A stretch of 64,000 nt of DNA, taken from positions 4,949-68,948 of the forward strand of contig NZ_CP108445.1 in the NCBI RefSeq assembly GCF_041435355.1, written 5' to 3'. Made by a program: the position numbers and the translations under genes. The notes beneath the pieces are model-generated. The model had not been told where the DNA came from. It saw only the letters and a list, made by a program, of their open reading frames with translations, and did no database searches. This stretch comes from Streptomyces sp. NBC_01276 (GTDB lineage: Bacteria; Actinomycetota; Actinomycetes; Streptomycetales; Streptomycetaceae). How positions within the stretch are numbered: position 1 is the stretch's first letter; each line of letters opens with the position of its first letter. Positions 5,829 through 55,775 of the stretch are shown piece after piece.

Positions 5829-5855
5829 GCGCTTCCACCTCCCATTCAGGTCACA

Positions 5856-7261: not shown

Positions 7262-7722
7262 ACGTGCAGCTTGCCACCGAGACCGTGATCGCTGCGGGGC
7301 CCATCCTCGGTCAGGTCGGCGTCCCCGCCATCGCGATGGCGGACGGCATCTACCTCTTCCTCGGGCTGCGCGGTGCCAAGCGGGTGTCCCTCACCCGCGA
7401 CAAGGCCGCCAACATGGGAGCCGTCTTCGGTGCCCTCGGGACCGCCGCCGGAGGCACGCTCGCCCAGGCCGTCCAGGGTCTCGGCAAGGTCCCCACGAGC
7501 ATTTTCGACGGCGTCGGACAGTCCCTCTCCGGCGGTGACTTCGGACTCGCTGGTGCGGCGCTGATCCTCGGGATCGTCACGTACGTCCCCGACTGGAAGA
7601 AGCTCTCGATCCCCGCTTTCGGCGGGATCGGGCTCGGGTCGACCGCCGTCGCAGTCGGAGGCCTGTACCTGATCGTCAACAACGTCCTGATCATGGTGGC
7701 CCGAGGGCTGGGGGCACTGTGA
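7258..7722 (+). CDS. Gly/Ala-rich membrane protein of the spread-type operon
   Basis: 154 aa, starting at an ATGA overlap. Hydrophobic stretches include GPILGQVGVPAIAMADGIYL, GAVFGALGTAAGGTLAQAV, FGLAGAALILGIVTYV and TAVAVGGLYLIVNNVLIMVA, giving roughly four helices. Short polar loops contain a KRVSLTRDKAANM segment. No enzyme motif is present. Translational coupling on both sides suggests a membrane complex with the flanking proteins. Confidence 0.65.
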   Translation: MNVQLATETVIAAGPILGQVGVPAIAMADGIYLFLGLRGAKRVSLTRDKAANMGAVFGALGTAAGGTLAQAVQGLGKVPTSIFDGVGQSLSGGDFGLAGAALILGIVTYVPDWKKLSIPAFGGIGLGSTAVAVGGLYLIVNNVLIMVARGLGAL

Positions 7723-14727: not shown

Positions 14728-14807
14728 TCCAAATCCGGCGCCGGGCCACGTGAAGCCAGAGGGTACGCTGCGGGCCATACACCATGGGATTTTCAGAGAG
14801 GGCGGGC

Positions 14808-25377: not shown

Positions 25378-26321
25378 GCGGTCACCTCCGCACTCGTTGC
25401 CCCGGCCCCGGCTGTGGGTTCGTCGTCGGGGAGGGGGGCGGGGGAGACGGCGCTGCGGGGGTCGGTGATCAGGAAGCGGGGAACGGGCTTGGTGTCGGCG
25501 ATCTGCCGCATCATCGCCAGGACGCCCACGAACCCGGCCAGCAGGGCCGCCAGGACCAGCTGGCCCAGCATGGTGCCGTAGGGAGCGGTGTAGGAGGGGA
25601 TGAGGAAGCCGGCACCGATGACGCCGAGGGTGATGATCGTCATCCACCGCATCGTCGTGCGTGGCTTGGCCCGGTCGGCCTCGATCGCACGCCTGCGGGC
25701 GACTTCCTCGTGGACGGACTCGGCGAGGTCGTCCAGGGCCTGGGCGAGGCCGGGGCCGCGGTCGGCGGCCGACAGGATCAGGGCGGCCACCACCTTGTCC
25801 GCGGTCACATCGTTCAGGGCGTCACCGAACTCGCGCAGGGCGTCCGTCGGCCGCCATCCCACCTGGAGCCGGTCGACCAGGTCGGCGACCTCCTCTGCGA
25901 TGGCCTCCGGGCAGCCCTTGCGGGAGATGTGCAGGGCTTCGTCCAGGCCCCGCCCGAGGCGGAGCACGTTGGCCAGGCGCTGCGTCCAGTCTCCGAGCGA
26001 CTCCAGTTTCGCGATCCGCGCGGTCGCGGACTTCGTGGGCGAGAGCAGCCACGGCACGCCAGTCACGGCCAGGAGCAGCATCGCTCCCGCCACGAACACG
26101 CCTGTGACCAGCCACAGCACGATCCCGGCAACCGCGCCGACGACCAGCCGGGTACGGCGGGCCATCTGCTCGTCGCGGCCCGCCAGCTGACGCCCGGCCC
26201 TTATCCGGGCGGCCAGCGTGGGCCCCTTGGGCGTGGTGGTACCGATGACCCCGGCGACCAGTCCCACCAGGCCGCCGGTGACGGCGAGGCCGGCCACCAC
26301 CCACAGCAGCAGCGTTGTCAC
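25374..26321 (-). CDS. tadB: TadB-like pilus platform protein
   Basis: 315 aa. Helices lie at both ends (LLLWVVAGLAVTGGLVGLVA, IVLWLVTGVFVAGAMLLLAV, MRWMTIITLGVIGAGFLIPS). The T2SS-type core is ESLGDWTQRLANVLRLGRGL, DEALHISRKGCPEAIAEEVA, VGWRPTDALREFGDALND. Overlaps tadA and tadC by four bases each, so the three are translationally coupled. Confidence 0.88.
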   Translation of the reverse strand: MTTLLLWVVAGLAVTGGLVGLVAGVIGTTTPKGPTLAARIRAGRQLAGRDEQMARRTRLVVGAVAGIVLWLVTGVFVAGAMLLLAVTGVPWLLSPTKSATARIAKLESLGDWTQRLANVLRLGRGLDEALHISRKGCPEAIAEEVADLVDRLQVGWRPTDALREFGDALNDVTADKVVAALILSAADRGPGLAQALDDLAESVHEEVARRRAIEADRAKPRTTMRWMTIITLGVIGAGFLIPSYTAPYGTMLGQLVLAALLAGFVGVLAMMRQIADTKPVPRFLITDPRSAVSPAPLPDDEPTAGAGATSAEVTA

Positions 26322-27871
26322 CGGACGTCCTCCGTGATCATCAGCGGCAGGGCTGCCGGCCAGGCACCGCCCGGCTCGGACAGCAGCGCGGGATCGAAGC
26401 CCACGCGCCTCAGGTCGTTGATGCAGCGGGGGAGCATGAGCGGCACCCCGCGGTGCTCACCCCACTCCGGGCGCGGCCCGAAGATCTGGTTGGTGTCCGG
26501 GCGCCCGCCCTCGCCGATCCCGGTGACCTCCAGGACGTGGGAGACGAAACGATGACGGTGCCCGCCGATCTTGGTCTCATCGATGGAGGACACGAACACG
26601 ATGAAGTGCAGCCCGTTCGCGGCCTGCCGGTAGGCCAGAGCCTCCGACATGTTGGCCTGCGCGAGGAGATACAGCTCGGCGATCCGGTCGAACACGACGC
26701 TGGGACGGATGGCGTGCAGGGTGCACAGGTTGCCGCCCGCACCGTTCGTCATCGCCTGCAGCATCGCGACGATCTCGGGGCCGCGGACCTCACCGACGAC
26801 GATCCGCGTCAGCGTCATGCGCAGCGCCCGGTACATCAGGTCCATGAGGGAGATCGCGCCGGCGGCCTGCCCGCCGACCATCTCCCCGTTGGACTCGCGG
26901 GCCTCCATCGGCACGACCTGGCGGTGGTACCCGTTCTCGTGGGCGAACAATTCGTGTTCGGTCTCCAGGGTCGCGAACCGCTCGTCGGGATCGATCTCCC
27001 GAAGGAGCGCCCGCAGCAGCGTCGTCTTCCCGGCCGCCTGACCACCGACGATCATCACGTTTTTCTCCGCGCGCACGCAGGCCCGCAGGAACGACTCCAG
27101 GGTGCTGTCCAGCATCCCGCGCGCCACCAGCTCGGGCAGGTCCGCATGCCGCATCGTGTGCCGGCGGATCGTCACGAACGTGCCCGGGGTGACATCGGTG
27201 ACCGCCTGCAGACGGGACCCGTCCGCCAGACGCAGCGCGAGGAACGGATCCGCCGTCGACAGGGAGCGCTCGTTCTGACCGGTCGTGCGCCGCGCGAGGT
27301 CGCGCAGGAGTTCACGCAGCTCCTCGTCGGAGTCCGCCACCGGCGCGACCTCCACGCGGCGCCCGTCGGTGAAGTCCAGCCACGTGCGCGTGTGCCCGTT
27401 GATGAAGATGTTCTCGACCAGCGGGTTGTCGAGATGCTGCTGGAGACGACCGGCCCGGAACTGGAGGTCGAACACGGCCTGAGCGGTCGCCGCGTCCTCA
27501 CTGGCCGACGTCGCGAAACCCCGCTTGACGGCCTCGGCATCCGACCACACCGCCACCTGCTCGTTGATCAGGTGGCGGCCCTGCTGCTCCTGCGCGGCCA
27601 GGCTCATGCCCGGCCGGCTGCGCAGCATCTCGGTGAGCCGCTCCCCGACCTCCTTCTTGATCAGCCGGACCGCCGTGTAGTCCACGGCGGCCGGTGCGCT
27701 GGCCACGGCCTGGGAGGGGAAGCCGGCGCGCGGATCCACGGGTACGGCCGCGCCGGGCACCGGCCCTCCCCCGGGAGGCTGAGTCATACGGTGCGGGGGG
27801 AGACCGCGCGGGGCCGCGAGGCGTGCTTCCAGCGAGACCTGGGGGTTGCTGTGGAGAGGGTTAGCGCGCAC
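26318..27871 (-). CDS. tadA: TadA/CpaF secretion ATPase
   Basis: 517 aa, GTG start. The N-terminal domain is typical of CpaF (NPLVENIFINGHTRTWLDFT; DPFLALRLADGSRLQAVTDV). Walker A is IVGGQAAGKTTLLRALL. An Asp box (LATLETEHELFAHENGYHRQ) and Walker B/His box (RIVVGEVRGPEIVAMLQAMT, NGAGGNLCTLHAIRPSVVFD) follow. It is a hexameric motor that powers assembly of Flp pili. Complete, with all catalytic motifs intact. Confidence 0.95.
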   Translation of the reverse strand: MRANPLHSNPQVSLEARLAAPRGLPPHRMTQPPGGGPVPGAAVPVDPRAGFPSQAVASAPAAVDYTAVRLIKKEVGERLTEMLRSRPGMSLAAQEQQGRHLINEQVAVWSDAEAVKRGFATSASEDAATAQAVFDLQFRAGRLQQHLDNPLVENIFINGHTRTWLDFTDGRRVEVAPVADSDEELRELLRDLARRTTGQNERSLSTADPFLALRLADGSRLQAVTDVTPGTFVTIRRHTMRHADLPELVARGMLDSTLESFLRACVRAEKNVMIVGGQAAGKTTLLRALLREIDPDERFATLETEHELFAHENGYHRQVVPMEARESNGEMVGGQAAGAISLMDLMYRALRMTLTRIVVGEVRGPEIVAMLQAMTNGAGGNLCTLHAIRPSVVFDRIAELYLLAQANMSEALAYRQAANGLHFIVFVSSIDETKIGGHRHRFVSHVLEVTGIGEGGRPDTNQIFGPRPEWGEHRGVPLMLPRCINDLRRVGFDPALLSEPGGAWPAALPLMITEDVR

Positions 27872-39281: not shown

Positions 39282-39610
39282 AGCCGCCGCCCCGCGCTGC
39301 TCACAAGCCCGATCGCAGCTGAGACCGCGAGGGCGGAGAACAGCAGCAGTGCGGTGCGGTGGTTGAGACCGGCAGGCCAGACGGAGGCCTGCGAGGCCGG
39401 TCCCGGCATCCGGCTCATGCCGCAGTAGGCGACGGTAGGCCCTGCCGTCAGGTGGCAGTCCTGGCCCGTGCCCTCTTCGAACGGTGCAGCAACTGCGGGC
39501 GTCGGGCGGGTGTGGGGCATGGCCCAGGCGCCGACGGTGCACGTGATCAGGAGCAGCGCGACGGCGGCGACGAGCAGTCGCCGCACACCGGCGGTGGTGG
39601 TGCGGGTCAC
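39278..39610 (-). CDS. Two-helix membrane protein of the conjugation operon
   Basis: 110 aa, GTG start. Helices at both ends (LLVAAVALLLITCTVGAWAM, ALLLFSALAVSAAIGLVSSA) flank a short exported loop with a Cys pair (QDCHLTAGPTVAYCGMS). It overlaps the VirB4-like and VirB6-like genes by four bases each, so it likely belongs to the channel. Not recognised otherwise. Confidence 0.7.
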   Translation of the reverse strand: MTRTTTAGVRRLLVAAVALLLITCTVGAWAMPHTRPTPAVAAPFEEGTGQDCHLTAGPTVAYCGMSRMPGPASQASVWPAGLNHRTALLLFSALAVSAAIGLVSSAGRRL

Positions 39611-42174
39611 GAGGTCCCCCTGTCGGCCGGGGCGTGTGGCGTCCGGCCGGGTGTAGTGAAGATCGATTCCTTGAGGCGGGGCACGGGCGGGACGACGACT
39701 TTGATCCGGCCGACCTGCATCCGCGGATCACGCAGGAACATCTCGCCCTCGCGGCCGCTCTGTCCCACGGGGGACAGGCCGGTGGTGACCATCCGTACGA
39801 GGTCTTCGTCGTCGCCGTCCAGGCCGATGAAGTGCAGCCCCTTGGCGGCGCGGGCGCGGTCGCTGGTGCGGGCGAGGAACCGGTAGGCGATCAGGGCCGC
39901 GTCGGCTCCGAGTTCGTCTTTGTCGTGGGCGCCGAGGAAGCAGCCGGCGCCGTGCTTGCGGCCGTCGTGGAGGATCTCGTGGACCAGCGCGGAGCCCTCC
40001 GCGGAGGAGGTCAGCCAGTACACCTCGTCCATCGACACCAGGCAGAACCGCTCCGGGTCGGTGAAAGCGGCCTGGCGGGCGATCGCGGCGATCAGATACA
40101 GCACGGCCCGCCCGATCAAGGCCTCCAGAGGCTGCTGGCGCAGGACCTCGGCGTCGGCGAACGCCTCCTTCGGCGGCAGGGTCAGGCCGGTGGTGGTGAC
40201 CACCACCAGGTCCGCGCCCAGGTCCCCGTCCAGGGTGACCGGTGGCAGGTCCGCATCGAAGACCATCGCCGCGAGGGGGTTGCCGCGCACGATCCGCAGC
40301 AGGTCGGCCATCGTCGCTGCCGCGTCCGACCGGGTCGCGGTACCGGTCTCGGCGAGGCCGGCGAGGACGTCCAAGACCTTTCCCATGGACGGATCCGGGC
40401 CCGCGCACACCTCCTGGACCGCGTGATGCAGTACCGCCCCGGACGCGGTCATCGCCCCCACCCCCAGCTGCAGGGTGAGGTAGGAGAGGGCGTAGTGGGC
40501 GCCGACGGCTCCGCCGAACACGCGCAGCGGGTCGATGGACACCTCGGCGCGGGCGGCGTCGATCACCTCGCACCGCTCACCCATCGCGGCCCGCCCGAAG
40601 CTCGCCCACTCCCGGATCGGCGTCCGGTCGATGACGATCGCCCGCCCGCCCTGGTCCACGACCGCCGCGGTGACGAGTTTCTCCAGCACGCTTTTCCCGG
40701 CGCCGAGATCCCCGACCACAGCCAGCGACGCGGACGCGTTCACCTGCGGCGCGTTGGCCGGGTTCAGCAGGACGGGGCGGATGGTGCCGCTGTCCAGGTC
40801 GTGACCGACCAGCATCCCGCCCGGGTCCCCCACCCCCGACAAGGTGAACGCCCCCGCGGCGGCCCAGTCCTCCGACAGCTGGTGCTGGGTGAACTGGCCC
40901 AGCTTCGCCGGACGGGCAGTGCCGGGAAGGGACAGGGCGAACAGGTCTTCCTGCATGCCGTAGGGGCGCTCCACCCGGTAGTCACCCCCCGACAGAGCCG
41001 CAGACAGCTCCCGCGCCCGCTCATCACACGTGGCCGTGTCGGGCCCCCACACGGACAGCACCGTCACCGACTGGACCTCGACCTCCACCGACGTCCGCGC
41101 CATCCGCGCGTCCTGCTCGGCAAGATCCCCCGCCGCCTCAGGAAGGGAATGCGGCATCCCGGTCGGCTGTGCCCCGTACTGTCCGGCCTGGTCCAGGAGT
41201 TCGCGCTTCTTGCGCTGGACCTGGGCTCGGGCCTTCTTCGCCGGGACGATCCGCAGATCCACACACACGTCGACCGGAAAGTGAAGCTGCTCCAGCTGCG
41301 CGAGGACGTCCGCGCTGTCGACTGCCACGGCGGGCGGAAGCTCGGCGAGCACGAGGTGGGACTGGTAGCCGGTCCCGGCCTCGGATTCGACCTGCACCCA
41401 CCGGCGGCCCAGAGGGGACGCGGTGCCGGCCTTGCGCCACCACGGCCGATCGGAGGCCGTCGCCTTGCCCGGGATCCGGGTGTCCTGCCCGCCTTCGGCG
41501 AGACGGATCTGCCCCAGATCCGCATACGAGGGGGAGGAGAGCCGGCCCGCGTGGACGCGGCTGCCGTAGAGCGGGCTGTGCTCGGCGTCCGACAGCAGCG
41601 GCTCCTGCGCGAGGCCGCGATGGACGGCGTGCTGCACCATCCACACGATTTCCGCCGGGGACGCGGGCCGCAGCCCGAGCCCGCCACCCAAAGAGGTCTG
41701 GATCCGCTCAGCCTCCGCGAACGCAGCCCTCAGCTCCGCCTCGGGCACCGGTACCGGCGGGAGGTCAAGTGCGGCGGACAGCTCCCCGTACAGGGCGTTC
41801 AGGGAAGCGGTCGCAGTCCGGCCCGGGAGGGGCACGGCCAGCCACAGGGTCCGCTCATGCATGTCCTGGTCGGCCAGCAGGTCCACCGCCGCCGCGCAGG
41901 TTTCCGCCCAGGCGGGCAGGCGCTGCCAGTCCAGGCCGGCCACCATCCGCTCGGCGATCTCGCCCGGGTCGGTACGCGCAGCCAGGACGAACAGCCTCGG
42001 CTCCATCGCAGGCATCGACCGCACCAGGGAAGTGACCCGGTCCAGCAGGTCCTGGCGCACCCGGGCGGGAAGATAGCCGCCCGCCAGCGGCGTCACCCGC
42101 CACACCGCCCAGACCCGGGAGGAAGCCGACCACAGCAGATGACCGGCAACATGCCGGAACGGAGGAGTACGCAT
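39607..42174 (-). CDS. VirB4-like conjugation ATPase
   Basis: 855 aa from the ATG at 42174 (AGGAGG eight bases upstream; a GTG one codon earlier is possible). The N-terminal half resembles the SCO6880/PrgI-associated part of actinobacterial VirB4 proteins. Walker A is LAVVGDLGAGKSVLEKLVTA, then VIDRTPIREWASF. Walker B is ERFCLVSMDEVYWLTSS, and GCFLGAHDKDELGADAALIA resembles the motif near the arginine finger. It powers channel assembly and substrate transfer. Confidence 0.88.
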   Translation of the reverse strand: MRTPPFRHVAGHLLWSASSRVWAVWRVTPLAGGYLPARVRQDLLDRVTSLVRSMPAMEPRLFVLAARTDPGEIAERMVAGLDWQRLPAWAETCAAAVDLLADQDMHERTLWLAVPLPGRTATASLNALYGELSAALDLPPVPVPEAELRAAFAEAERIQTSLGGGLGLRPASPAEIVWMVQHAVHRGLAQEPLLSDAEHSPLYGSRVHAGRLSSPSYADLGQIRLAEGGQDTRIPGKATASDRPWWRKAGTASPLGRRWVQVESEAGTGYQSHLVLAELPPAVAVDSADVLAQLEQLHFPVDVCVDLRIVPAKKARAQVQRKKRELLDQAGQYGAQPTGMPHSLPEAAGDLAEQDARMARTSVEVEVQSVTVLSVWGPDTATCDERARELSAALSGGDYRVERPYGMQEDLFALSLPGTARPAKLGQFTQHQLSEDWAAAGAFTLSGVGDPGGMLVGHDLDSGTIRPVLLNPANAPQVNASASLAVVGDLGAGKSVLEKLVTAAVVDQGGRAIVIDRTPIREWASFGRAAMGERCEVIDAARAEVSIDPLRVFGGAVGAHYALSYLTLQLGVGAMTASGAVLHHAVQEVCAGPDPSMGKVLDVLAGLAETGTATRSDAAATMADLLRIVRGNPLAAMVFDADLPPVTLDGDLGADLVVVTTTGLTLPPKEAFADAEVLRQQPLEALIGRAVLYLIAAIARQAAFTDPERFCLVSMDEVYWLTSSAEGSALVHEILHDGRKHGAGCFLGAHDKDELGADAALIAYRFLARTSDRARAAKGLHFIGLDGDDEDLVRMVTTGLSPVGQSGREGEMFLRDPRMQVGRIKVVVPPVPRLKESIFTTPGRTPHAPADRGTS

Positions 42175-42719
42175 CACGCCGCCCTCCTTCCGGAGCCCGC
42201 CAGGAGCGAGTCCAAGCCCGACCCCGCCGCCGCCCGCCCCGACACAGCGGGCAGCCGTACGACGGCTCCGCCCGCTCCGGCCGACCCGCTCGCCCGGCTC
42301 GCCGCGCCCGAAGGGGCCGCGAGCAGCACCGAGCCGGGGGCAGTCTGGATGACGAACCTGCCGCGCAGGCGGGAGGACCGGCGCTCACGGGCGATCCGCC
42401 CACCGATCCGCCCCGCCGGATGCCGCAGCAGCAGCACCACCACACCGGCCACCGCCGTGAACGGGTTCTGACCGGCGATCTGCGCACCACGCACCGCCCA
42501 CACCGCCACCAGCCACAGCGCAACCGGCACCGGCCCGGCCCACGACCACCAGTCGTAGCCCTTGACCAGCGCGAACGCCCCACCACCGAGCACAACCAGC
42601 TGCGCGGGCGTGTACGGGCCGAACGGAACCATCCAGTCACCGAGCTTGCCCAGCACCCACGGGTGGCGACGCGCACCGGTGTAGACACGCGCGACCCGAG
42701 GACGCGCCGCCGCGCTCAC
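42174..42719 (-). CDS. TcpE-like conjugation membrane protein
   Basis: 181 aa from the GTG at 42719. RVYTGARRHPWVLGKLGDWM then VPFGPYTPAQLVVLGGGAFA and PVPVALWLVAVWAVRGAQIA is the short two-helix pattern of TcpE. A basic Gly/Ala-rich cytoplasmic tail follows. In the ICE/Tn916 and pCW3 systems the TcpE homologue helps place the ATPases in the membrane, and this gene directly precedes the VirB4-like gene as in those systems. Confidence 0.75.
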   Translation of the reverse strand: MSAAARPRVARVYTGARRHPWVLGKLGDWMVPFGPYTPAQLVVLGGGAFALVKGYDWWSWAGPVPVALWLVAVWAVRGAQIAGQNPFTAVAGVVVLLLRHPAGRIGGRIARERRSSRLRGRFVIQTAPGSVLLAAPSGAASRASGSAGAGGAVVRLPAVSGRAAAGSGLDSLLAGSGRRAA

Positions 42720-45906: not shown

Positions 45907-46419
45907 CTACGCTGCTGCCTTCATCATCACCGCGTATACCGGGGAATCCGCGAAGGGCTGGTTCTCCCCGATCTTCCGGTAGCCCCAGCCTTCGTACATC
46001 GCCTGAAGGCGGGGCCGTTTGGTGTCCACTGTGAGGACCGCCCACGTCTCGGGGCGGCCGCTGAGAAGAGCGTCGTGCAGGCGCGGACCCAGTCCGGTTT
46101 TCCGCCATTTCGGGCGCACCATCAGCTCTGAGACGGAGAAGGTGGACGACTCCTGCGGCGTTGTCTCAAGGTGTCCTTGCCACCACTCCCGCCCTGGGGT
46201 GGCCGGGGCGCCGTAGGAGAACCCGACGGGCACGTCTTGTTCCCAGGCGATGACGCAGGAGAAGCCGGGGTTGGCGCCCCAGTGGTCGACGAACCAGGGG
46301 AAGCGCTGTACGAACTCCTCGTGCCGGCGATCGGCGTACGCGTCCTCGTGTACGTCAAGGAGGGTCTGGCGGATGTCGCCGAGGTCGGTGTGGCCGTAGT
46401 GCTTTATCTCGGTGGTCAC
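45907..46419 (-). CDS. GNAT-family acetyltransferase
   Basis: 170 aa from the GTG at 46419, which overlaps the regulator stop and has GGAG before it; an ATG four codons upstream is an alternative. Strand-helix order follows GNAT: CVIAWEQDVPVGFSYGAPAT, then FSVSELMVRPKWRKTGLGPR (acetyl-CoA loop with R-x-x-G-L-G), LHDALLSGRPETWAVLTVDT, and MYEGWGYRKIGENQPF near the end. Substrate unknown. Coupled to a TPR regulator next to the RiPP-like operon, but on the opposite strand. Confidence 0.85.
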   Translation of the reverse strand: MTTEIKHYGHTDLGDIRQTLLDVHEDAYADRRHEEFVQRFPWFVDHWGANPGFSCVIAWEQDVPVGFSYGAPATPGREWWQGHLETTPQESSTFSVSELMVRPKWRKTGLGPRLHDALLSGRPETWAVLTVDTKRPRLQAMYEGWGYRKIGENQPFADSPVYAVMMKAAA

Positions 46420-47669
46420 GAGGCGCTCCATTGGGTGCGGTATTGGTCTGCCCACTCCCGGGCCGCCTGGGCGGAGGGGGCGGTGGTGAACAGCGTGCGG
46501 TGGAAGTCGCCGAGCATCGTGCGCAGGCGCCCGGGCAGCGGGTCGCCGGCCATCAGCTCGAAGGCGTGGCCGGTCGTGGCGCATGCCTGCTCGACCTCGC
46601 CCTGGTGGAGTTGAGCGGAGGCGAGGCGGACCGTGGTCATCGACCGGTTTCGCCGCAGTCTCACGGACAGGGAGGCGAGTGCCTGGTGCGATGCTGCTTC
46701 GGCGTGTGCAGGCTCGCCAAGGAGTTCACGGACGATCGCGGTGAGTGCCGCGAGTTCGGCTGGTCCGTAGAAGCTGATCCATGACGGGCTCTGGGTGGTG
46801 GGGTCTGCTTTCGCGAGGGCGGCTTCCGCGTGCCCAAGGGAACGCAGCGCGGGCTGTCTGTCCCCGCATGAGGCGTGCCCGATCGCGGTCCGGGCGTGCG
46901 CGAGAGAGGAGAACAGGGGGTTGCGGCGGGCGGCAGTGGTGGCCTGCGCGGCTTGAGAGGCGGCGATGCCCTCGCCGTACTCGTGGCGCTGATGCGCGAG
47001 CATCGCGGTGGAATTCCAGACCCGCAGCTGCGCCGTGGAGTCCTGCGCCATGCCCGCCATGCGCAGAGCCTCACTCAGGTGGACACGGGCCCGGTCCAGT
47101 TGCCGGGCGTCGATGCAGGACCACGCCGCCGATGCCGTGTAGTGGGCGGCCACCGACAGAAGCCGCTGCCGTACGGTCTGTGAAACGGCGTTGCGCTGCA
47201 GCCCGATGGCCTCTGCTGCCCCGGCGAGCGCGGCTCTCTCCAGCGCGGCATGCCCTCCCCGGGACTGGTCGAGGGCAGTCAGGGTTGCCATCCCCTCACG
47301 GAGCCGGACCACATCCGAGGTGCCCACCGACCGGCGGCCCGCGACCTTCGAGACGGAGCCGATGACCACGCCAGTGGTGGCGGTGCAGAAGGAGCGGCGG
47401 AGCACAGATTCCTCCGGTGGTGCGGCAGCAGCGGTCGAGGCGAAACCTAAGTCGCCGATCGGGCATCCGAACACCCGCTCCAGGGCGACCCTGGTACGCC
47501 CGATCGGGCGCCGGGTGGCGCCGCTGACCAGGTTCCTCACAGTGCGGGCCGAGACATCCCCCAGGCGGCCGGTGATCTCCAGCAGAGCGGCGTTCATCTG
47601 AGCTGCCAGTTCCTCCTGGGTGAGGCCCCGCTCAGCCATCCGCGCCCGTAAGGCGGCGTTCTCCGTCAT
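46416..47669 (-). CDS. XRE regulator with TPR-like sensor domain
   Basis: 417 aa from the ATG at 47669. The N-terminus (MAERGLTQEELAAQMNAALL, DVSARTVRNLVSGATRRPIG) is a helix-turn-helix of the Streptomyces type; the remaining 300 residues form repeated helix pairs (ALERAALAGAAEAIGLQRNA, ARVHLSEALRMAGMAQDSTA, GPAELAALTAIVRELLGEPA) like TPRs. Such regulators often control neighbouring natural-product operons. Divergent from 47944, about 1.3 kb from the precursor-peptide gene. Weak ribosome site, possibly leaderless. Confidence 0.82.
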   Translation of the reverse strand: MTENAALRARMAERGLTQEELAAQMNAALLEITGRLGDVSARTVRNLVSGATRRPIGRTRVALERVFGCPIGDLGFASTAAAAPPEESVLRRSFCTATTGVVIGSVSKVAGRRSVGTSDVVRLREGMATLTALDQSRGGHAALERAALAGAAEAIGLQRNAVSQTVRQRLLSVAAHYTASAAWSCIDARQLDRARVHLSEALRMAGMAQDSTAQLRVWNSTAMLAHQRHEYGEGIAASQAAQATTAARRNPLFSSLAHARTAIGHASCGDRQPALRSLGHAEAALAKADPTTQSPSWISFYGPAELAALTAIVRELLGEPAHAEAASHQALASLSVRLRRNRSMTTVRLASAQLHQGEVEQACATTGHAFELMAGDPLPGRLRTMLGDFHRTLFTTAPSAQAAREWADQYRTQWSAS

Positions 47670-47943
47670 GGCACAGAACGTAGCGAGCAAGTCACCCGCA
47701 GACGAGAGGGCCAGGTATTGCGACCGTAAAGTCTTCCGGTCGCATGCGCCCACCGCGCCCGCCACTCTTCCTGTCACCAGCGGCTTTGGCGCCGTTGACT
47801 GGTCATCGTGCCGCCCGGGGCCGAGTTGGTCGACCCCCTACCCCCGGGCGGCAGCACCTCTCGCATCACCGCGGCGCCGGACGCGCCGCGCGGTGACTGC
47901 CTGCGTGGATCTGGGACACGAACGTCACCTTCGGGAGGCCCTC

Positions 47944-48815: not shown

Positions 48816-48941
48816 CCCCCTCAGCTCCCGCCCCGGCCAGGGACGGGCAAGCGGGCCGCCGGAGAGAACCCGTGCGGCCCGAGACACCACCGGATGCGGG
48901 CAACAGACCCGCACCGCCGGCACCAGACGAAGGAGAACACC

Positions 48942-49055
48942 GTGGAACAGTCCAAGTCCAGCCTCGCCGCCGCCAGCACCTCGGCATCGGTGGAGGGCAC
49001 CGAGACCATCACCCAGCCCATCGTCGTCGCCGTCGACGTGGAGGACGAGGAGTAA
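48942..49055 (+). CDS. Candidate RiPP precursor peptide
   Basis: 37 aa; GTG at 48942 with AAGGAG six bases upstream, too short for ordinary ORF calling. It starts MEQSKSSLAAASTSASVEG, continues TETITQPIVVAV and ends DVEDEE. It is acidic and lacks Cys, so a lanthipeptide is excluded. It has a Ser/Thr/Ala-rich front and a hydrophobic ITQPIVVAV stretch. It is followed by a strong hairpin and a TfuA-YcaO pair, the enzymes that install thioamides in peptide backbones. The role as substrate is inferred from size, position and ribosome site. Confidence 0.7.
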   Translation: MEQSKSSLAAASTSASVEGTETITQPIVVAVDVEDEE

Positions 49056-49083
49056 TCCCCGCCCGCCCGTAGCCCCCTGACAT

Positions 49084-49134
49084 GGGCGCCCCTCCCGTTC
49101 CACACGCCCCTCGTGGGCCCAGGGAGGGGCGCCC
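49084..49134 (+). terminator. Attenuator hairpin between precursor and tfuA
   Basis: Perfect 13-bp stem GGGCGCCCCTCCC / GGGAGGGGCGCCC with a 25-base loop that itself can pair (CACG / CGTG). Such a partial terminator would give more precursor than enzyme transcript, as in many RiPP operons. Confidence 0.75.
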
Positions 49135-49158
49135 CTGGCACTTCACCGCGGAGGCGCA

Positions 49159-50409
49159 GTGATTCACCTCTACACCGGGCCGACGCTCTCGGCGTCCGAG
49201 CCCGCACTTGCAGCACCAGGCCTGCGGGTGCTGCCCCCGGCACGGCACGGCGACCTGTTCGACACCGCGATCGCCGCCGGCGACACCGTCGTACTCATCG
49301 ACGGGGCGTACCACCAGGCACCGGCACTCAGGCACAAGGAGATCCTGGCCGTGATGGGCCGGGGCGTCACGGTGCTGGGGGCGGCGAGCATCGGCGCGCT
49401 GCGGGCGGCCGAGCTGGCGCCGTACGGCATGGTCGGCGTCGGCAGCATCTACACCGCCTACGTCCGCGGGGACATCGACGGGGACGACGAGGTCGCGGTC
49501 GGGCAGGCCCCCGACGGAGCGTTCGCTGCGCTGACCTGGCCGCTGGTCAACCTCCGGTACGTCCTGGACCTGGCGGTCGCGGCCAGGGTCCTCGACGGCG
49601 TGCGGGCCGCCAAGTTGCTGGCGGCGCTGCGCGCGGTCTACTACCCGCAGCGCACCGGGGCCGCCGTGCGCGCCGTGTGCCGCCGCGAGGGCGAGGAGGA
49701 GTTCGCCCGGTGGCTGACCCGGCAGCGTAAGCAGGATCAGCACTTCGGCGACCTCAAGCGGGCCGACGCGCTCGCCGCCGTACGCGCCGCGCTCGCCGGC
49801 ACTGCTGCGCCGCAGGCGTCCACCGGGCTGCCGGTGGGGGAGACGGCGTACTTCCGGCGCTGGTCGAATGCCGCCGTGCGTGAACGCGTGGACGGCGTGG
49901 AGCTGTCCACCGAGGACCGCGTGGTCTACCAGCAGGTCTTCGACCCCGCCTTCGGTACGCGGTGGACCGCCTACCTCGAACACCTCTCCCGGCATCCCGC
50001 CGACGGAGAACCGGGGATGCCGCTCGCCGAACGCCTGGCCCGCGCAACGGGCGGTCACCTGAGCGCCCACCGGGTCTTCCACCCGGCGGTCGACCTGCGG
50101 GATCCGCAGACGGTGGCGCTGCTGCTGGCGGGCGAAGGCGCGGCAGACCGGCGCGCCGTCGCCCGGTATGCCGAGGTGCTCGCGCATGCCCGCCACAGCC
50201 GCCCCGGTTTCTGCGCGAACGCGGTCCACGACAGCCTGGCCCGCGACCTGCTGTTGCAGGTGTGGGGCTGCTCGGAGGAGGAGCTCGATGCACAGGCCTC
50301 CGCCCGCGGACTGGTCCGGGCGGCCGGCGCGGTGGAGGCGGCCAAGCAACTCGTGCCCGGGTTCCTGGACGAATCGAACAGAACGGAGGCGGCCCATGCC
50401 GGGCGTTGA
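49159..50409 (+). CDS. tfuA: TfuA-like thioamidation partner protein
   Basis: 416 aa; GTG at 49159 behind GGAGG. The TfuA core is clear at residues 40-125: TVVLIDGAYHQAPALRHKEI, VTVLGAASIGALRAAELAPY, GMVGVGSIYTAYVRGDIDGD, DEVAVGQAPDGA. The protein then extends for about 200 residues with no known domain (FRRWSNAAVRERVDGVELST, RYAEVLAHARHSRPGFCANA). In known pathways TfuA supplies sulfide for YcaO-catalysed backbone thioamide formation. It overlaps the YcaO gene by 14 bases. Confidence 0.9.
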   Translation: MIHLYTGPTLSASEPALAAPGLRVLPPARHGDLFDTAIAAGDTVVLIDGAYHQAPALRHKEILAVMGRGVTVLGAASIGALRAAELAPYGMVGVGSIYTAYVRGDIDGDDEVAVGQAPDGAFAALTWPLVNLRYVLDLAVAARVLDGVRAAKLLAALRAVYYPQRTGAAVRAVCRREGEEEFARWLTRQRKQDQHFGDLKRADALAAVRAALAGTAAPQASTGLPVGETAYFRRWSNAAVRERVDGVELSTEDRVVYQQVFDPAFGTRWTAYLEHLSRHPADGEPGMPLAERLARATGGHLSAHRVFHPAVDLRDPQTVALLLAGEGAADRRAVARYAEVLAHARHSRPGFCANAVHDSLARDLLLQVWGCSEEELDAQASARGLVRAAGAVEAAKQLVPGFLDESNRTEAAHAGR

Positions 50410-51544
50410 GGAGCCGGTGGCGCTGGCGGGCACCGTACGGGCGCGAACGGCGGAGCAGACCTGGGCGGCGGTTGCCGACCACCTGCCGGGATTCGGCATC
50501 ACCCGGGTCGCGGACCTGACAGGCCTGGATGTGATCGGGCTGCCGGTGTGGACGGCGATCCGCCCCGCCTCGAAGACCCTGAGCACCTCGCAGGGCAAGG
50601 GCGCCACACCCCTGCTGGCGAAGCTGTCCGCAGTGATGGAAGCGATCGAACTGTGGCACGCCGAGCAACCGCTGCCCGCCGCTGCGGTGGGCCCGGCCGT
50701 CGAGGTCGCCCCCCACTGCCCGGTGGCCGCGCTACCACTGACCGCCCCCCATCCCGCTGACGCTCTGGCCCGGGTGGTGTGCGAGTGGACGGCCGGCACC
50801 ACGCTGCTGAGCGGAACGACGACGCTGCTGCCGACCGACCTGGTCCGGCGCCGCGGCCAGCGCCCCGCGTGGACCCCGGACGTGTGGCGCGCGACCAGTA
50901 CCGGACTCGCGTGCGGCAACACCCGCGACGAGGCGCTGCTTCACGCCTTGTTCGAGGTGGCCGAGCGTGACGTGCTCTACCGGGACGGGCAGCAGCACGG
51001 ACGGCTGCGCACGCTGATCGACCCGGGCACGGTCGACGACCCGCACGGCCAGGAGGTGATCGGCCGTCTCCGTGCCGCAGGCATGGCCCTGGAGGTGTCG
51101 CTGGTCGACGGCCCGTACGGGCTGCCGGTGTGCCTGGCCTACCTGTGGTCGGAGGACTACCCGGTGCTCTTCGCCGGCGGCGGATGCCACAGCGTCCCCG
51201 GGATCGCGCTGACGCGGGCGGTGACCGAGGCCGCGCAGTCCAGGCTCGCCGCCATCGCAGGAACCCGGGACGACCTCCCCACCGCCCCGCCCGCCTTCGA
51301 CACCCCCTCTGTCCCGCAACCAGAGCCTGGCCGGCCTGAGGCGTGGCCGGAGGTTGCGGCCCGCTACAGGCCGCCTGGCGGCGGCTTCGCCGACCAGGTC
51401 CGCGCCGTGGCCCGGCGCTTCGAGTCCGTCACCGGACACCAGCCCGTTGCCCTGGACCTGTCCGGCCCACACTGCCCGGTCCATGCCGTGCAGGTCCTGT
51501 GCCCCGGCACCCGCTCCCGGATCAGAAGGTCGATGCCCCGATGA
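50396..51544 (+). CDS. YcaO ATP-dependent backbone-modifying enzyme
   Basis: 382 aa from the ATG at 50396. ATP-binding motifs are present: STSQGKGATPLLAKLSAVME then AIELWHAE (residues about 62-90), TGLACGNTRDEALLHALFEV then AERD, and the GGGCHSVPGIALTRAVTEAA then QSRLAAIAG segment. There is no E1-like or ocin-ThiF partner and no C-terminal PxPxP. This argues against azoline formation and, together with TfuA, for thioamidation. The substrate is presumably the 48942 peptide. Confidence 0.92.
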   Translation: MPGVEEPVALAGTVRARTAEQTWAAVADHLPGFGITRVADLTGLDVIGLPVWTAIRPASKTLSTSQGKGATPLLAKLSAVMEAIELWHAEQPLPAAAVGPAVEVAPHCPVAALPLTAPHPADALARVVCEWTAGTTLLSGTTTLLPTDLVRRRGQRPAWTPDVWRATSTGLACGNTRDEALLHALFEVAERDVLYRDGQQHGRLRTLIDPGTVDDPHGQEVIGRLRAAGMALEVSLVDGPYGLPVCLAYLWSEDYPVLFAGGGCHSVPGIALTRAVTEAAQSRLAAIAGTRDDLPTAPPAFDTPSVPQPEPGRPEAWPEVAARYRPPGGGFADQVRAVARRFESVTGHQPVALDLSGPHCPVHAVQVLCPGTRSRIRRSMPR

Positions 51545-52401
51545 ACACCCATAGCCCCGCGAGGTCGGCCGAGTACGACGCCTTCCACGCCGCCCGAGCC
51601 CGCACCGACGTCGTGGCACGCCTGTACGCCGAGGCGATGGGCGAGGACTACCCCGCCGAGGTCGCCGCATCCAGCTCCTGCGACTGGCCCCTGCTCGGCC
51701 TCCTGGCCGCCCGGCTGCGGATGCGTCCCGGTCAGCTGCTCGTGGACGCCGGATGCGGTACCGGCGGCATCGGCCTGTGGCTGGCCCGCGCCCTCACCGT
51801 CCGCCTGCACGGCTTCGACCTCTCGCCCGTCGCCGCCGCCCAGGCCGCCGCCCGCCGCACCCACTTCCTCGGCCCGCACGCCGGCCGCGCCCACTTCCGC
51901 GTCGCAGAGCTGGAGGACACCGGCCTGCCGGACGGCTGCGCTCACGGCATCTTCTGCGTGGACGCCCTTGGTCGCGCCGCCGACCGCGGGGCGGCGCTGC
52001 GCGAGCTGGGCCGGCTCCTGGCCCCGGGCGGCGCTCTGGTGGTCACCCGTGCACTGCGGCGCGGCGCCGACCCTGGGTGGCAGCACGAGCTCGCTGCCGC
52101 CGGACTGACACAGGAGCACGTAGACGAGCGACCCCGTGAACCCGCAATGTGGGAACGGCTCTACCGCCTGTGGATCGCCCACGCCGATCAGCTGCGCCGC
52201 GAACTGGGCGAGACGGCCGCCGAGAACATGCTCCGCGAGGCACACCAGAAGCTCCCCACCCTGCCCGGCCGACGGGCCGTCCTGCTGACCCTGCGCCGCC
52301 CTGCAGAGGCCCCGGCCGGGCCCGGGGCGGCCGATAGGATGGGCGAGGGCGGCCGCCAGGGCGGCGACAGGCCCGTGCCCGACGAGAGGACCCCGCAGTG
52401 A
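51541..52401 (+). CDS. SAM-dependent methyltransferase
   Basis: 286 aa, ATGA overlap with ycaO. Class I fold: motif I LLVDAGCGTGGIGLWLARAL, acidic end of strand 2 HGFDLSPVAAAQAAARR, LGRLLAPGGALVVTRALRRG before the last strands. An N-terminal helical lid (FHAARARTDVVARLYAEAMG EDYP) resembles small-molecule or peptide methyltransferases. The C-terminal 30 residues are disordered. It probably tailors the peptide product; the site is unknown. Confidence 0.88.
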   Translation: MNTHSPARSAEYDAFHAARARTDVVARLYAEAMGEDYPAEVAASSSCDWPLLGLLAARLRMRPGQLLVDAGCGTGGIGLWLARALTVRLHGFDLSPVAAAQAAARRTHFLGPHAGRAHFRVAELEDTGLPDGCAHGIFCVDALGRAADRGAALRELGRLLAPGGALVVTRALRRGADPGWQHELAAAGLTQEHVDERPREPAMWERLYRLWIAHADQLRRELGETAAENMLREAHQKLPTLPGRRAVLLTLRRPAEAPAGPGAADRMGEGGRQGGDRPVPDERTPQ

Positions 52402-53411
52402 ACCAGGACCGTCCCGCCCGCGCGGCGGTGTTCTCGGCCGGTTCCTGGGGCACCGCCGTCGGCAAGATCATGGCCGACACAGGCACCCACGTCGTCATGC
52501 ACGCCCGGCGAGCCGAGATCGCCGACGCGATCAACACGACACACCACAACCCCGGGTACTTCCCCGACATCGAGCTCCCGCACACGGTGAGCGCCACCAC
52601 CGATCCGGCCACCGCGCTGGACGGCGCCGACTTCCTCGTCCTGTCCATCCCCGCCCAGTCCCTGCGCACCAGCCTGGCAGCCTGGGCCCCGCACATCGGT
52701 CCGGACACAGTGATCGTGTCGCTGATGAAGGGCATCGAGACCGGCAGCGGCCTGCGGGCCAGCCAGGTAATCACCGAAGTGACCGGCATCCCCACCGAGC
52801 GGATCGCGGTGCTGTCCGGCCCGAACCTGGCCCGCGAGATCATGGACGGCCAGCCCGCAGCCGCCACCATCGCCTGCCCCGACGAAGCCGCCGCCCACCG
52901 CGTCCAGCGGGCCTGCCACACCCCGTACTTCCGCCCCTACACCTCCGCCGACGTCATCGGCTGCGAACTGGGCGGCGCCGTGAAGAACGTCATCGCCCTC
53001 GCGGTCGGCATCGCCTCCGGCATGGGGCTGGGCCACAACGCGCAGGCCATGCTCATCACCCGCGGCCTCGCGGAAACCACCCGCCTGGCCACAGCCATGG
53101 GCGCCCACCCCTCCACCCTCGCCGGACTCGCCGGACTCGGCGACCTCGTGGCCACCTGCTCCTCCCCGCTCTCCCGCAACCGCACCTTCGGCCACCACCT
53201 CGGCCAGGGCATGACGATGGCCGAGGCCACCGCCGCCACCCGCCAGACCACCGAGGGCGTCAAGAGCGCCCAGGCGATCCTCGCCCTGGCCGACACCCAC
53301 AACATCGAGATGCCGATCACGAACGTCATCTCCGCCCTTCTGCACGAGAAGGTCACCCTCGACCAGGCCGCGGGCGCGCTGATGCAGCGGCCCCCCAAGC
53401 CCGAGCAGTGA
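52398..53411 (+). CDS. gpsA: Glycerol-3-phosphate dehydrogenase-like protein
   Basis: 337 aa, GTG overlapping the methyltransferase stop. GpsA features: dinucleotide motif AVFSAGSWGTAVGKIMADTG (first Gly of GxGxxG is Ser), LVLSIPAQSLRTSLAAWAPH, MKGIETGSGLRASQVI, catalytic Lys in GCELGGAVKNVIALAVGIAS, and LAGLGDLVATCSSPLSRNRT. Full length. It normally reduces dihydroxyacetone phosphate to glycerol 3-phosphate for lipid synthesis. Within this operon it may be a repurposed dehydrogenase or provide a glycerol phosphate donor; both are speculation. Confidence 0.9.
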   Translation: MNQDRPARAAVFSAGSWGTAVGKIMADTGTHVVMHARRAEIADAINTTHHNPGYFPDIELPHTVSATTDPATALDGADFLVLSIPAQSLRTSLAAWAPHIGPDTVIVSLMKGIETGSGLRASQVITEVTGIPTERIAVLSGPNLAREIMDGQPAAATIACPDEAAAHRVQRACHTPYFRPYTSADVIGCELGGAVKNVIALAVGIASGMGLGHNAQAMLITRGLAETTRLATAMGAHPSTLAGLAGLGDLVATCSSPLSRNRTFGHHLGQGMTMAEATAATRQTTEGVKSAQAILALADTHNIEMPITNVISALLHEKVTLDQAAGALMQRPPKPEQ

Positions 53412-53484
53412 TCCCCGCGGCACCCCGCACCCCGGGGCCCGCCGCTCCTCACCCTCACCCTCCCGACCCGGAGGTCCCTCACCC

Positions 53485-53841
53485 ATGCGCGAATCCGTGC
53501 TGCCCGCCGTCCAAACCGCCGCCACCCTCGCCCTCGTAGCCTGGATGATCACCGGCTTCACCCCCGCGCCCGGCCGCTGGCTGCGCTGGAAGATGTTCTG
53601 CCGGGCCACCTTCACAATCGTCGAGCTCACCGGCATCACCAAGAACGGCGCCACCGAGACGGTCAACGTCTACGACCACCTCTCACCCGGCTCCTTCATC
53701 CTGGGACCGCCCCAGCTCCAGGCGATCCTCGACCACCTCACCGCAAGCGGCCGCTACGAACGCATCGACGGCACCGGACGCGTCCTGTCCGCCCGCGGCG
53801 AGCAGCCCGTGAAGGTGGTGGCCGGCCGTGTGGTTCTTTGA
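53485..53841 (+). CDS. Small membrane-anchored protein paired with HTTM gene
   Basis: 118 aa. One N-terminal helix (LPAVQTAATLALVAWMITGF) and a soluble part (RATFTIVELTGITKNGATET, VNVYDHLSPGSFILGPPQLQ, AILDHLTASGRYERIDGTGR). The stop lies inside the next gene (14-base overlap), so the two are translationally coupled and probably form a complex. Family not recognised. Confidence 0.75.
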   Translation: MRESVLPAVQTAATLALVAWMITGFTPAPGRWLRWKMFCRATFTIVELTGITKNGATETVNVYDHLSPGSFILGPPQLQAILDHLTASGRYERIDGTGRVLSARGEQPVKVVAGRVVL

Positions 53842-54682
53842 CGCGCTCCTCTCCGGCTTCACCCGCCCCACCGACCCGGGCAGGCTCCAGCTGTTCCGGA
53901 TCACCTTCGCCACCGTGCTCACCGCCCGGTTCACGCTCGCCCTCGGCCAAGGCGGCTGGGACCGCCTCACCCCGGGATCACTCAGCCTCCACCTCACCGA
54001 ACAGCGCTTCGGACCCCGACGGGCCCAGCTCCTCGCGAGCGTGTACCGCCCCACCCTGATCCTCCGCACGATCGCCGCCCTCACCCTGGCCGCCGGATTC
54101 GCCCCCCGCCTCGCACTGCTGGCCGCCCTGGCCGGCGCCGCCATGGAACTGGTCTACCTCCGCAGCCCCAACGCCGTCCGCTACACCCTGCTGACCGGCG
54201 CATGCCTCGCCGTCGGCGGCAACCTCGGCCACGGCCTGACCATCGAGCACACCCCGAGCACCGCGAACACGTGGGCCCTGTGCCTACTCGTGCTGATCAC
54301 CACGGACATCTACTGGAACTCCGCCTGGCAGAAACTCCGCAGCCCCCAGTTCCGCACCGGCCTCTACCTCGCCCAATGGATTCACACCTACACCAAGGTC
54401 CGCGAACGCCTCCCGCACGCCCGAGGGCAGTACGCGGTCCCGGCATTCGTCCGCCGACACCTGGGCAACCTCACCGACCGAGACATCCGCATCTGGCGCC
54501 TGGCAGCCGCGACCGTCATCGCGGCCGAACTTGTGCTGCCGGTCGCGCTGTCCATCCCGCAGACGATGCCGTATGCCGTCGCCGCCGGCATCGCGATGCA
54601 TGCGGCGTTCACCTGTCTCAAGCCCCGCCAGCTCATCACCTTCTCCGGCCTGACCCTCGGCACGTACGTCGCCTTCGGCTGA
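53828..54682 (+). CDS. HTTM-domain (vitamin-K-carboxylase-like) membrane protein
   Basis: 284 aa, GTG at 53828. The FRITFATVLTARFTLALGQG start, then helices LILRTIAALTLAAGFAPRLA, LLALLAALAGAAMELVYL, TWALCLLVLITTDIYWNSAW and WRLAAATVIAAELVLPVALS, give the horizontally transferred transmembrane (HTTM) domain layout. The conserved WQKLRSPQFRTGLYLAQWIH follows the fourth helix. The soluble C-terminal domain of true gamma-glutamyl carboxylases is absent. Last gene of the operon. A membrane-bound oxidative or carboxylating tailoring step is an inference. Confidence 0.82.
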   Translation: MWFFDALLSGFTRPTDPGRLQLFRITFATVLTARFTLALGQGGWDRLTPGSLSLHLTEQRFGPRRAQLLASVYRPTLILRTIAALTLAAGFAPRLALLAALAGAAMELVYLRSPNAVRYTLLTGACLAVGGNLGHGLTIEHTPSTANTWALCLLVLITTDIYWNSAWQKLRSPQFRTGLYLAQWIHTYTKVRERLPHARGQYAVPAFVRRHLGNLTDRDIRIWRLAAATVIAAELVLPVALSIPQTMPYAVAAGIAMHAAFTCLKPRQLITFSGLTLGTYVAFG

Positions 54683-55775
54683 CTTCAACTGCGCGATCTG
54701 GGACGTACGCGAGGCCCGCTTCGCGGACGGGCTCGCCGCGTGCCGCCGCTACCGCGACCACCACGGCGACCTCGCCGTCCCCGTCAATCACGTCGATGCC
54801 GAGGGATACAACCTCGGTGACTTCATCGCCTACCAGCGGGGCTTGGCCGCGGGCAGCGTTCGCGACCCCTCCGGCCGACCCCGCACCCTGGATCCCGAGC
54901 GCCGTACCGCCCTGGACGAACTGGGCATGGTCTGGGCCGCCGCCACCCCGAAGCGTCCTCCCACGCAGGAGGAAATCGCCGCCCTGCGAGCCTTCCCCCA
55001 CCAGCGCGGCAAACCGTTCGCCGAAGCCCTCCTCGCCCTAGTCGAAGCGGGCGTCGAACAGAAGGCACTCGCCGAAGCCTTGGCCCTCAACACCAGCACC
55101 CTGAGCCAGCGGCTCAAGCGCGCCCGAACCAACGTCTACGCCGTCGACCCCTTCGCCCAGCACCTTGATGCCGCCCGCGCCTTCCACGAACGCCACGGAC
55201 ACCTGAGGCCACTGGAGACCTCCGACGACCCCGAAGTCCGCAGCCTCGCCGGTTGGCTGACCGGACAACGCGGCGCCCGCCGCAACGGGCAGCTAAGCGA
55301 CAAGCAGATCGCAGCCCTGGACGAACTCGGGATGGACTGGGAGCCCCTGGGATCCCGCTGGCAGCAAGCCCTCCAGGCTGCCCGCAGCTACCAGCAGGAG
55401 CACGGACACCTCCGCCCCCCGACCGGCACGACCGTCAGCGGAGTCGACCTGCCTGTATGGCTCCGCCGCCAGCGCACCGCCCACCAACGCGGCACCCTCC
55501 CGCCAGACCGTGTCGCCGCGCTCAATGAACTCGGCATTGACTGGACTCCCGGCCGCGGCGTCGCCGACGTACGGATCGATCAGGCCTGGCAGGCCCGCCT
55601 CGACGACGCCCGCCAGTACCAGGCCGCACACGGCCACCTTCGCCCGCCCGCCGGCACGAACGTCAACGGCAAACGCCTCGACGCCTGGCTCAACGTCCAA
55701 CGCGCCCGCAACCGCGAAGGCCGCCTTACCCCCCAGCAGATCGCCGCCCTTGACGAGCTGGGTATCCACTGGTGA
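54681..55775 (+). pseudogene. 5'-truncated helicase-associated-domain gene
   Basis: The protein-like frame starts directly at the HTTM stop codon (FNCAIWDVREARFADGLAAC onward) but contains no ATG or GTG before residue 55; the first usable start is a TTG at 54843. It contains repeated helicase-associated modules of about 70 residues, each ending in IAALDELGMDWxP-type sequence (ALDELGMVW, ALDELGMDW, ALNELGIDW, ALDELGIHW). In Streptomyces telomere-linked helicases such modules form the C-terminus, so the helicase domains have been lost here. Confidence 0.75.

Follow-up and report, generated by a model that had tools for sequence, protein, structure and literature searches.

Clusters for thioamidated ribosomally synthesised and post-translationally modified peptides (RiPPs) in Actinobacteria, such as those of the thiovarsolins and thioamitides, contain adjacent TfuA and YcaO genes behind a short, conserved precursor gene. 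In the portion available to us, a 2019 survey based on RiPPER networks (PMC6511847) reported 229 actinobacterial TfuA-like proteins and, as 'Network 2', 25 related Streptomyces peptides starting a conserved operon. The operon described here shares the above arrangement, its TfuA and YcaO genes (PF07812, PF02624) being adjacent and overlapping. It is located in a 64,000-nucleotide stretch of Streptomyces sp. NBC_01276 (hereafter the window), corresponding to bases 4949-68948 of a 68,948-base contig (NZ_CP108445.1) from a five-contig genome of 9.37 Mb. It may belong to the family of Network 2 and is perhaps already catalogued, yet undescribed as far as searched. Contrary to thioamitides (thioviridamide-like), none of its seven proteins displayed a Pfam or NCBIfam match for lanthipeptide-type dehydration or decarboxylation (AviMeCys). 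Likewise, no heme-oxygenase-like family was matched in these two collections.

The operon probably makes a sulfur-modified peptide. The reading preferred here, to which we give about an even chance, is that this plasmid operon makes a small thioamidated RiPP and also provides immunity to it; the glycerol-3-phosphate dehydrogenase GpsA would be a resistant copy of the target of the product. GpsA was the operon part most often outliving the rest. An initial annotation, made from the bare DNA letters, had described a 37-residue open reading frame with a ribosome-binding site, a hairpin and genes for TfuA, YcaO, a methyltransferase (MT), GpsA, a small anchored protein (here SMALL) and an HTTM protein; all were confirmed, in this order:

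48930..48935, plus strand: ribosome-binding site AAGGAG of the precursor gene (from sequence)
48942..49055, plus strand: precursor gene, 37 amino acids (aa), GTG start, stop ending at 49055, C-terminus IVVAVDVEDEE
49084..49134, plus strand: hairpin with a 13-bp stem in the precursor-tfuA gap
49159..50409, plus strand: TfuA, predicted sulfide delivery partner of YcaO (PF07812, 2.5e-41)
50396..51544, plus strand: YcaO, expected to form thioamides by ATP-dependent amide activation (PF02624, 1.6e-56)
51541..52401, plus strand: class I S-adenosylmethionine-dependent MT (PF13649, 1e-13)
52398..53411, plus strand: GpsA, NAD(P)H-dependent glycerol-3-phosphate dehydrogenase (PF07479, 1.7e-53; PF01210, 3.1e-48; NF000942, 451.7 bits for a cut-off of 257)
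53485..53841, plus strand: SMALL, 118 aa, one N-terminal transmembrane helix and a beta-rich domain (no family match)
53828..54682, plus strand: HTTM-type membrane protein with the predicted fold of the membrane domain of GGCX, the vitamin K-dependent gamma-carboxylase (only a sub-threshold MauE match)

Adjoining genes overlap end to start, except before TfuA and before SMALL.

By gene content and order, the operon is a member of an operon family of Streptomycetaceae. Relatives came from named plasmids (of the 26 records H27-H52, the loci of 16 were read), from three named genomes and from further genomes of the same genus. The plasmid and genome sets overlap (e.g. the T12 plasmid and G103:C2, which are equal in length), and their counts were therefore kept separate. 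Named carriers were Streptomyces, one Embleya, one Kitasatospora (decayed) and, more remotely, one Amycolatopsis. Loci were classed by TfuA identity to the window as near (about 65% and above), mid (52-57%) or far (44-51%). Thirty-three lineage loci were read, one of which (L041) is cut off within MT by the end of its contig and was excluded from the gene-order count. TfuA, YcaO, MT and GpsA occurred in this order, by tblastn, in 29 of the remaining 32 (17 near, 8 mid and 4 far). The three others were L046 (TfuA over 237 residues and no other gene), L049 (a TfuA fragment) and L042 (another operon). Some of the ordered loci carried damaged genes, namely TfuA in two frames in L040, YcaO only to residue 307 in L092 and HTTM in two pieces in L035. 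In the TfuA alignment, K60 was found in all 39 rows and S77 in 36 of them.

Two further observations were made on these loci. On the minus strand of L042 (G172:C11:36000-53102, positions 5215-7753), MT and GpsA are missing after a lineage TfuA (50%) and YcaO (56%); in their stead, a methyltransferase gene stands flanked by HemB (ALAD) and HemC (porphobilinogen deaminase) homologues; paralogues of essential enzymes thus again stand by TfuA-YcaO of the operon type. Two distinct operon copies, L037 (C21) and L040 (C20, with the split TfuA), coexist in one genome (G244).

SMALL and HTTM were found downstream in 15 of the 17 near loci and in none of the 12 mid and far loci. The two near exceptions were L037, where SMALL extends only to residue 48 and HTTM is absent, and L040, which reaches the contig end. 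The plasmid collection gave the same picture. Nineteen records displayed a TfuA with 60-80% identity; 17 matched near-full length, all of them encoding HTTM, versus none of nine records with TfuA at 50-53%. The other two were H59 (34% covered) and one that was not among the matches listed. Conservation of both GpsA and HTTM with TfuA-YcaO, on which the initial annotation had relied, was thus borne out for GpsA, while HTTM with SMALL is confined to the near clade and also occurs beside a cytochrome P450 (see below).

A peptide of the precursor family preceded tfuA in 31 of the 33 lineage loci and in none of the seven other TfuA loci read, the two misses being L042 and L049. Since this count was scored with the motif of the family itself, it is a recognition test; most of these precursors had already been found with a criterion based on the ribosome-binding site only, without the motif, applied to 19 loci. 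A chance open reading frame could be discarded on these grounds, and the TfuA-YcaO RiPP operon of the initial annotation, with a short peptide gene beside this clade of YcaO-TfuA, was upheld. The peptides start with (M)xxSKSxxAA and end with approximately VV-x-x-x-D-V-E-D-E followed by a variable tail: DEE or NDDPFVPA in the near group, EGP, DDW or EGGVA in the mid group and ECYTF, ECFTF or GPFTI in the far group (L046 ends in DEW). K5, V28 and D32 were invariant among 30 of the 31 precursors, which could be aligned. The ratio of nonsynonymous to synonymous polymorphism (pN/pS) was 0.028 over the last 11 codons of six 'EGP' precursors and 0.39 over the last 15 codons of 15 'DEE' precursors; in the middle, where the register is uncertain, it reached 1.1, as for unconstrained sequence. 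The C-terminal codons being constrained and the middle not, the C-terminal part is the likely modified region.

The arms of the hairpin span about 49084-49096 and 49122-49134, with a minimum free energy of -53.3 and z -2.6 (60 approximate shuffles). The precursor-tfuA intergenic region displayed z values of -2 or below in 24 of 31 related loci (misses: L002, L036, L043, L061, L062, L092 and L093). As no run of T follows the hairpin, it is perhaps an attenuator or a processing site.

The operon GpsA is a second copy in its genome and is 62% identical to the chromosomal one. Among 14 genomes, the ten operon carriers had two or three GpsA copies and the other four had one. The catalytic motifs were kept in 46 rows of operon-type and orphan GpsA (the Lys of SLMKG in 46 of 46, with few changes in VKN, GDLxxTC and SRN), and the operon copy should therefore be a working enzyme. 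Operon-type copies are further distinguished by Ala86, present in all 46 and replaced by Ser in all 14 chromosomal copies. In near and mid copies, His35, just after the dinucleotide-binding motif, was found in 40 of 40 versus Trp in 14 of 14 chromosomal copies, and Ser13, within this motif, in 39 of 40 (with one gap) versus Gly in 12 of 14.

A survey of 295 genomes of the same genus (E <= 1e-40, at most seven candidates scored per genome) revealed at least two GpsA matches in 30, all of which were followed. Ten carry the operon, one of them (G028) apparently split over two contigs. Eight bear near-clade GpsA orphans (L102-L109) and three mid-clade orphans (L110-L112, the last starting at a contig edge). 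Two have a mid-clade GpsA behind a partial MT (L168 and L169) and two have copies classed as far-like from their tree distance alone (L178 and L179). The others contain broken GpsA at 68-76% identity (G074, G165 and G019), a broken GpsA that was not placed (G195) and a remote 43% homologue (G254). G151 has both the operon and a second, orphan GpsA (L114). A copy present twice in G253, near both contig ends, was counted once.

Altogether, open-frame GpsA without adjoining TfuA-YcaO occurred at 16 loci (8 near, 5 mid and 3 far). Just 5' of GpsA, a partial or broken MT was present in half of them (L103, L104, L105, L107, L109, L114, L168 and L169), and pieces of SMALL or HTTM persisted at L106, L108 and L109. 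Genome searches for TfuA and YcaO showed that the orphan-bearing genomes other than G151 lack both genes of the lineage. No precursor motif and no TfuA were detected in a scan of 15 orphan loci (L056-L059 and L102-L112), and a YcaO piece was found only in L059. Decay was also visible on plasmids, where GpsA lies behind an MT stub (L056), behind an almost complete MT preceded by part of YcaO (L059) or with a broken HTTM (L057 and L058). Independent gpsA duplications were thereby rejected as the source of orphans wherever a partial MT abuts (eight genome loci and plasmid L056). A stand-alone GpsA-SMALL-HTTM module, suggested by NBC_00161, was likewise dismissed, the MT stub upstream showing a decayed operon. 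On the GpsA tree, eight changes to the orphan state were counted by parsimony, at least five of them being forced by starred branches.

Of the other operon genes, YcaO, TfuA and HTTM were searched in the same 295 genomes for comparison. No YcaO orphan was recorded at E <= 1e-60, a threshold at which fragments are invisible; matches of at least 49% identity were all in TfuA loci already counted. TfuA matched in 44 genomes at E <= 1e-20, mostly with other families, and no intact orphan of the lineage was found, partial matches being present in G053 and G051. HTTM matched in 11 genomes, with a single orphan intact (in G274, where the neighbouring GpsA is broken) and fragments in six (G130, G253, G141, G064, G051 and G291). 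Intact to broken near-clade orphans were thus 8:3 for GpsA, 1:6 for HTTM and 0:2 for TfuA. For GpsA versus HTTM, the two-sided Fisher p was 0.050; versus HTTM and TfuA together (1:8), the one-sided p was 0.009, or 0.025 with L103, L104 and L107, whose flanks are shared, taken as one.

To outlive the operon is what is expected of the immunity gene in peptide-toxin systems, and GpsA therefore looks like one. A product-resistant GpsA in producer cells would account for its being most often left intact upon decay. Since GpsA appears to be a functional version of an essential enzyme, immunity would most simply reside in a target that the product cannot inhibit, and the retention of GpsA would thereby point to the target of the peptide. 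The initial annotation had supposed that the genes beyond TfuA and YcaO modify or export the product, which on this account becomes doubtful for GpsA.

The near-clade orphans are as constrained as the operon copies. Their ratio of nonsynonymous to synonymous substitution rates (dN/dS) to the nearest copy was 0.12-0.46, with a median of 0.275 to operon copies versus 0.272 among operon copies. Such retention could also reflect a metabolic benefit and not resistance: an extra glycerol-3-phosphate dehydrogenase might be useful to plasmid hosts in lipid or glycerol metabolism, the peptide being irrelevant and the operon a mere carrier. Open-frame orphans under purifying selection require no peptide, and the enzyme looks active from its sequence. 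Yet, nearly all extra gpsA copies in the 295 genomes were of the operon type, which is odd if dosage alone were useful, and the linkage of GpsA with TfuA-YcaO-MT was maintained to a TfuA identity as low as 44%. We consider this explanation unlikely.

Several other observations weigh against the preferred reading. The Streptomyces anulatus plasmid L060 (NZ_CP107824.1, 3145-8849) encodes TfuA, YcaO, MT, a cytochrome P450, SMALL and HTTM, the P450 replacing GpsA. The Amycolatopsis plasmid L055 (NZ_CP024895.1, 7770-12532) displays TfuA and YcaO behind a gene for a short peptide, followed by a 272-aa protein that no Pfam family matched and by a major facilitator superfamily transporter, the latter in the position of GpsA. 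Far-clade GpsA copies lack Ser13 and His35 (0 of 6). Two separate recruitments of GpsA (far versus near plus mid) were hinted at by a quick tree, but the one-clade tree is not rejected (approximately unbiased test, p 0.31), and a single recruitment is compatible with the data. Six of the 16 orphans showed no relic of the operon (L102, L110, L111, L112, L178 and L179), three of them being read over little flank (L112 at its contig edge, L178 and L179 with 1.5-kb flanks). L103, L104 and L107 share chromosomal flanks, so that orphans are not all independent, and the broken copies of G074, G165, G019 and G195 indicate that GpsA is sometimes lost. The orphans were found by a GpsA-based search, for which YcaO, TfuA and HTTM in the same genomes are the sole control. 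As to the last two genes, SMALL matched the GGCX domain next to the membrane part weakly, and an equivalent of GGCX His160 was not evident in HTTM.

The presence of a P450 in the place of GpsA would also fit a tailoring oxidoreductase taken from central metabolism, either reducing a carbonyl or imine of the peptide or supplying glycerol 3-phosphate for attachment to it. That gpsA overlaps the methyltransferase gene and has a match in 29 of 32 lineage loci points the same way. However, the catalytic motifs of a normal glycerol-3-phosphate dehydrogenase were kept, and at the 16 genome loci without TfuA and YcaO a tailoring enzyme should lack its substrate, which makes such a role unlikely.

HTTM owes its label to its predicted fold, which in a structure model is that of the membrane part of human GGCX, and to the source names of some homologues. 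Lys169 was invariant in 62 of 62 sequences and may correspond to the Lys218 base of GGCX, judging by the GGCX motif and the SdpB profile. It is proposed that SMALL takes the place of the GGCX linker and propeptide-binding region. The two proteins may form a menaquinol-dependent, peptide-modifying pair, with gamma-carboxyglutamate (Gla) chemistry as a possibility. PDB sequence profiles for HTTM and SMALL did not retrieve GGCX; their matches were confined to designed proteins and one ligase. At E 0.1, NCBIfam contained no family for either protein, hence no SdpA or SdpB model match. When HTTM was compared with seven Streptomyces SdpB sequences by hhalign, a probability of 36.6 and a pairwise P of 3.7e-4 were obtained, with Lys169 on an SdpB Lys. 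SMALL as an SdpA was tried and rejected for want of a profile signal, 0 of 70 SMALL members matching an SdpA model at E 1.

From the gene content, synteny, precursor family, GpsA motifs, decay pattern, selection on near-clade GpsA and modelled HTTM fold shown here, we infer the following route. The 37-aa precursor would be made in excess over the enzymes by means of the hairpin after its gene. TfuA and YcaO would thioamidate its conserved C-terminal part (VVxxxDVEDE) at one or more backbone amides, and the methyltransferase would methylate the peptide. The SMALL-HTTM pair of the near clade might represent the vitamin K-dependent carboxylase fold split over two chains; it would further modify the peptide at the membrane with reduced menaquinone, by gamma-carboxylation of Glu, epimerisation or other proton-abstraction chemistry. 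The product would inhibit the essential glycerol-3-phosphate dehydrogenase of neighbours, and the operon GpsA would be a working, resistant version keeping producers alive. In its boldest form, this becomes a thioamidated peptide whose acidic tail is further modified by a two-chain, menaquinol-driven relative of gamma-carboxylase and which kills or restrains competitors through glycerol-3-phosphate dehydrogenase; the plasmid would carry a resistant GpsA, and decayed operons would persist across Streptomyces as stand-alone immunity genes. That all these elements hold together is doubtful.

The contig looks like a plasmid since it encodes ATPases of the ParA type (14784-15617), T2SSE type (26318-27871) and AAA_10 family (39607-42177). 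Frequent plasmid location (17 near-clade plasmids among the matches listed, in a plasmid-only collection) could indicate that there is no secreted product and that the peptide is thioamidated for an internal, plasmid-related role in maintenance or signalling, SMALL-HTTM and GpsA acting on membranes. No exporter or protease family was detected by Pfam and NCBIfam among the scanned operon proteins, and thioamidation of cellular proteins is reported, in the portions available, for McrA (PMC5589413) and uL16 (PMC13063428). Several operon copies nevertheless occurred on chromosome-size contigs (G252, G093, G192 and G089), and the recurrent decay and the diversity of C-terminal tails are reminiscent of a competition trait. 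NCBIfam models of the McrA-glycine thioamidation pair were below cut-off (NF033432, 158.3 for 235.2; TIGR03266, 147.5 for 365). An internal role is thus quite improbable.

A divergent gene lies upstream of the operon:

46416..47777, minus strand: NsdA-family regulator resembling tetratricopeptide-repeat proteins (NCBIfam NF053720, E 1.4e-87)

It is a possible regulator of the operon. Among nine upstream genes picked from related loci by size and orientation, this family was above cut-off in eight (L053, L054, L061, L089, L090, L092, L095 and L097), the exception being L055. Rfam at the gathering threshold and tRNA scans detected nothing within the window. Immediately 3' of the operon (54843-55775) is a gene for a protein with three Helicase-associated (PF03457) stretches, and the same plasmid-like contig encodes a 1119-aa protein with a LysM domain (19396-22758).

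The initial annotation knew of no described thioamide pathway with GpsA and HTTM together. This stood insofar as the literature search returned no paper joining TfuA, YcaO, glycerol-3-phosphate dehydrogenase and methyltransferase (the pairing of TfuA with HTTM was not searched); it is qualified by the survey PMC6511847, which, from the portion available, may already have drawn this operon. Its main text contains neither 'glycerol-3-phosphate' nor 'HTTM', and that of PMC8120280 contains neither of these words nor 'GpsA'. Similarly, no paper was found to join glycerol-3-phosphate dehydrogenase, self-resistance and biosynthetic gene cluster; a looser search on self-resistance gave no GpsA case among the matches listed, and papers naming this dehydrogenase with RiPP, Streptomyces and gene cluster were by title not on the topic of the operon. 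A limited search gave no natural peptide inhibitor of glycerol-3-phosphate dehydrogenase. What may be new here is the evidence for immunity-like retention of GpsA and the view of the last two genes as a GGCX-like pair. If correct, the target (an essential enzyme of phospholipid synthesis) and the immunity gene of a peptide family recurring on Streptomyces plasmids would be named from sequence alone, the origin of most extra gpsA genes in Streptomyces would be explained, and a compact bacterial two-subunit system would be available for the chemistry behind vitamin K-dependent carboxylation.

Three known systems are closest to these parts of the operon. SdpA and SdpB act in the maturation of the sporulation-delaying protein (SDP) of Bacillus subtilis, and the likeness lies in a gene for a small one-transmembrane protein adjoining an HTTM gene, although SdpA and SMALL share no detectable similarity. 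SdpA family genes themselves were encountered in 10 of 150 genomes of the same genus (L157-L166); at seven of these loci, SdpA is succeeded, with an overlap or at a short distance, by a gene for a membrane protein, an arrangement like that of SMALL and HTTM. A linaridin cluster also encodes an HTTM protein, according to the available portion of PMC9927463. Human GGCX resembles HTTM in predicted fold at about 14% identity, but is encoded by one gene, where the operon has two, SMALL and HTTM. Finally, self-resistance through target copies is a general principle in antibiotic clusters, and GpsA is alike in being a second copy of an essential enzyme, catalytically intact by its motifs, which is located in a biosynthetic operon and kept after biosynthesis has been lost.

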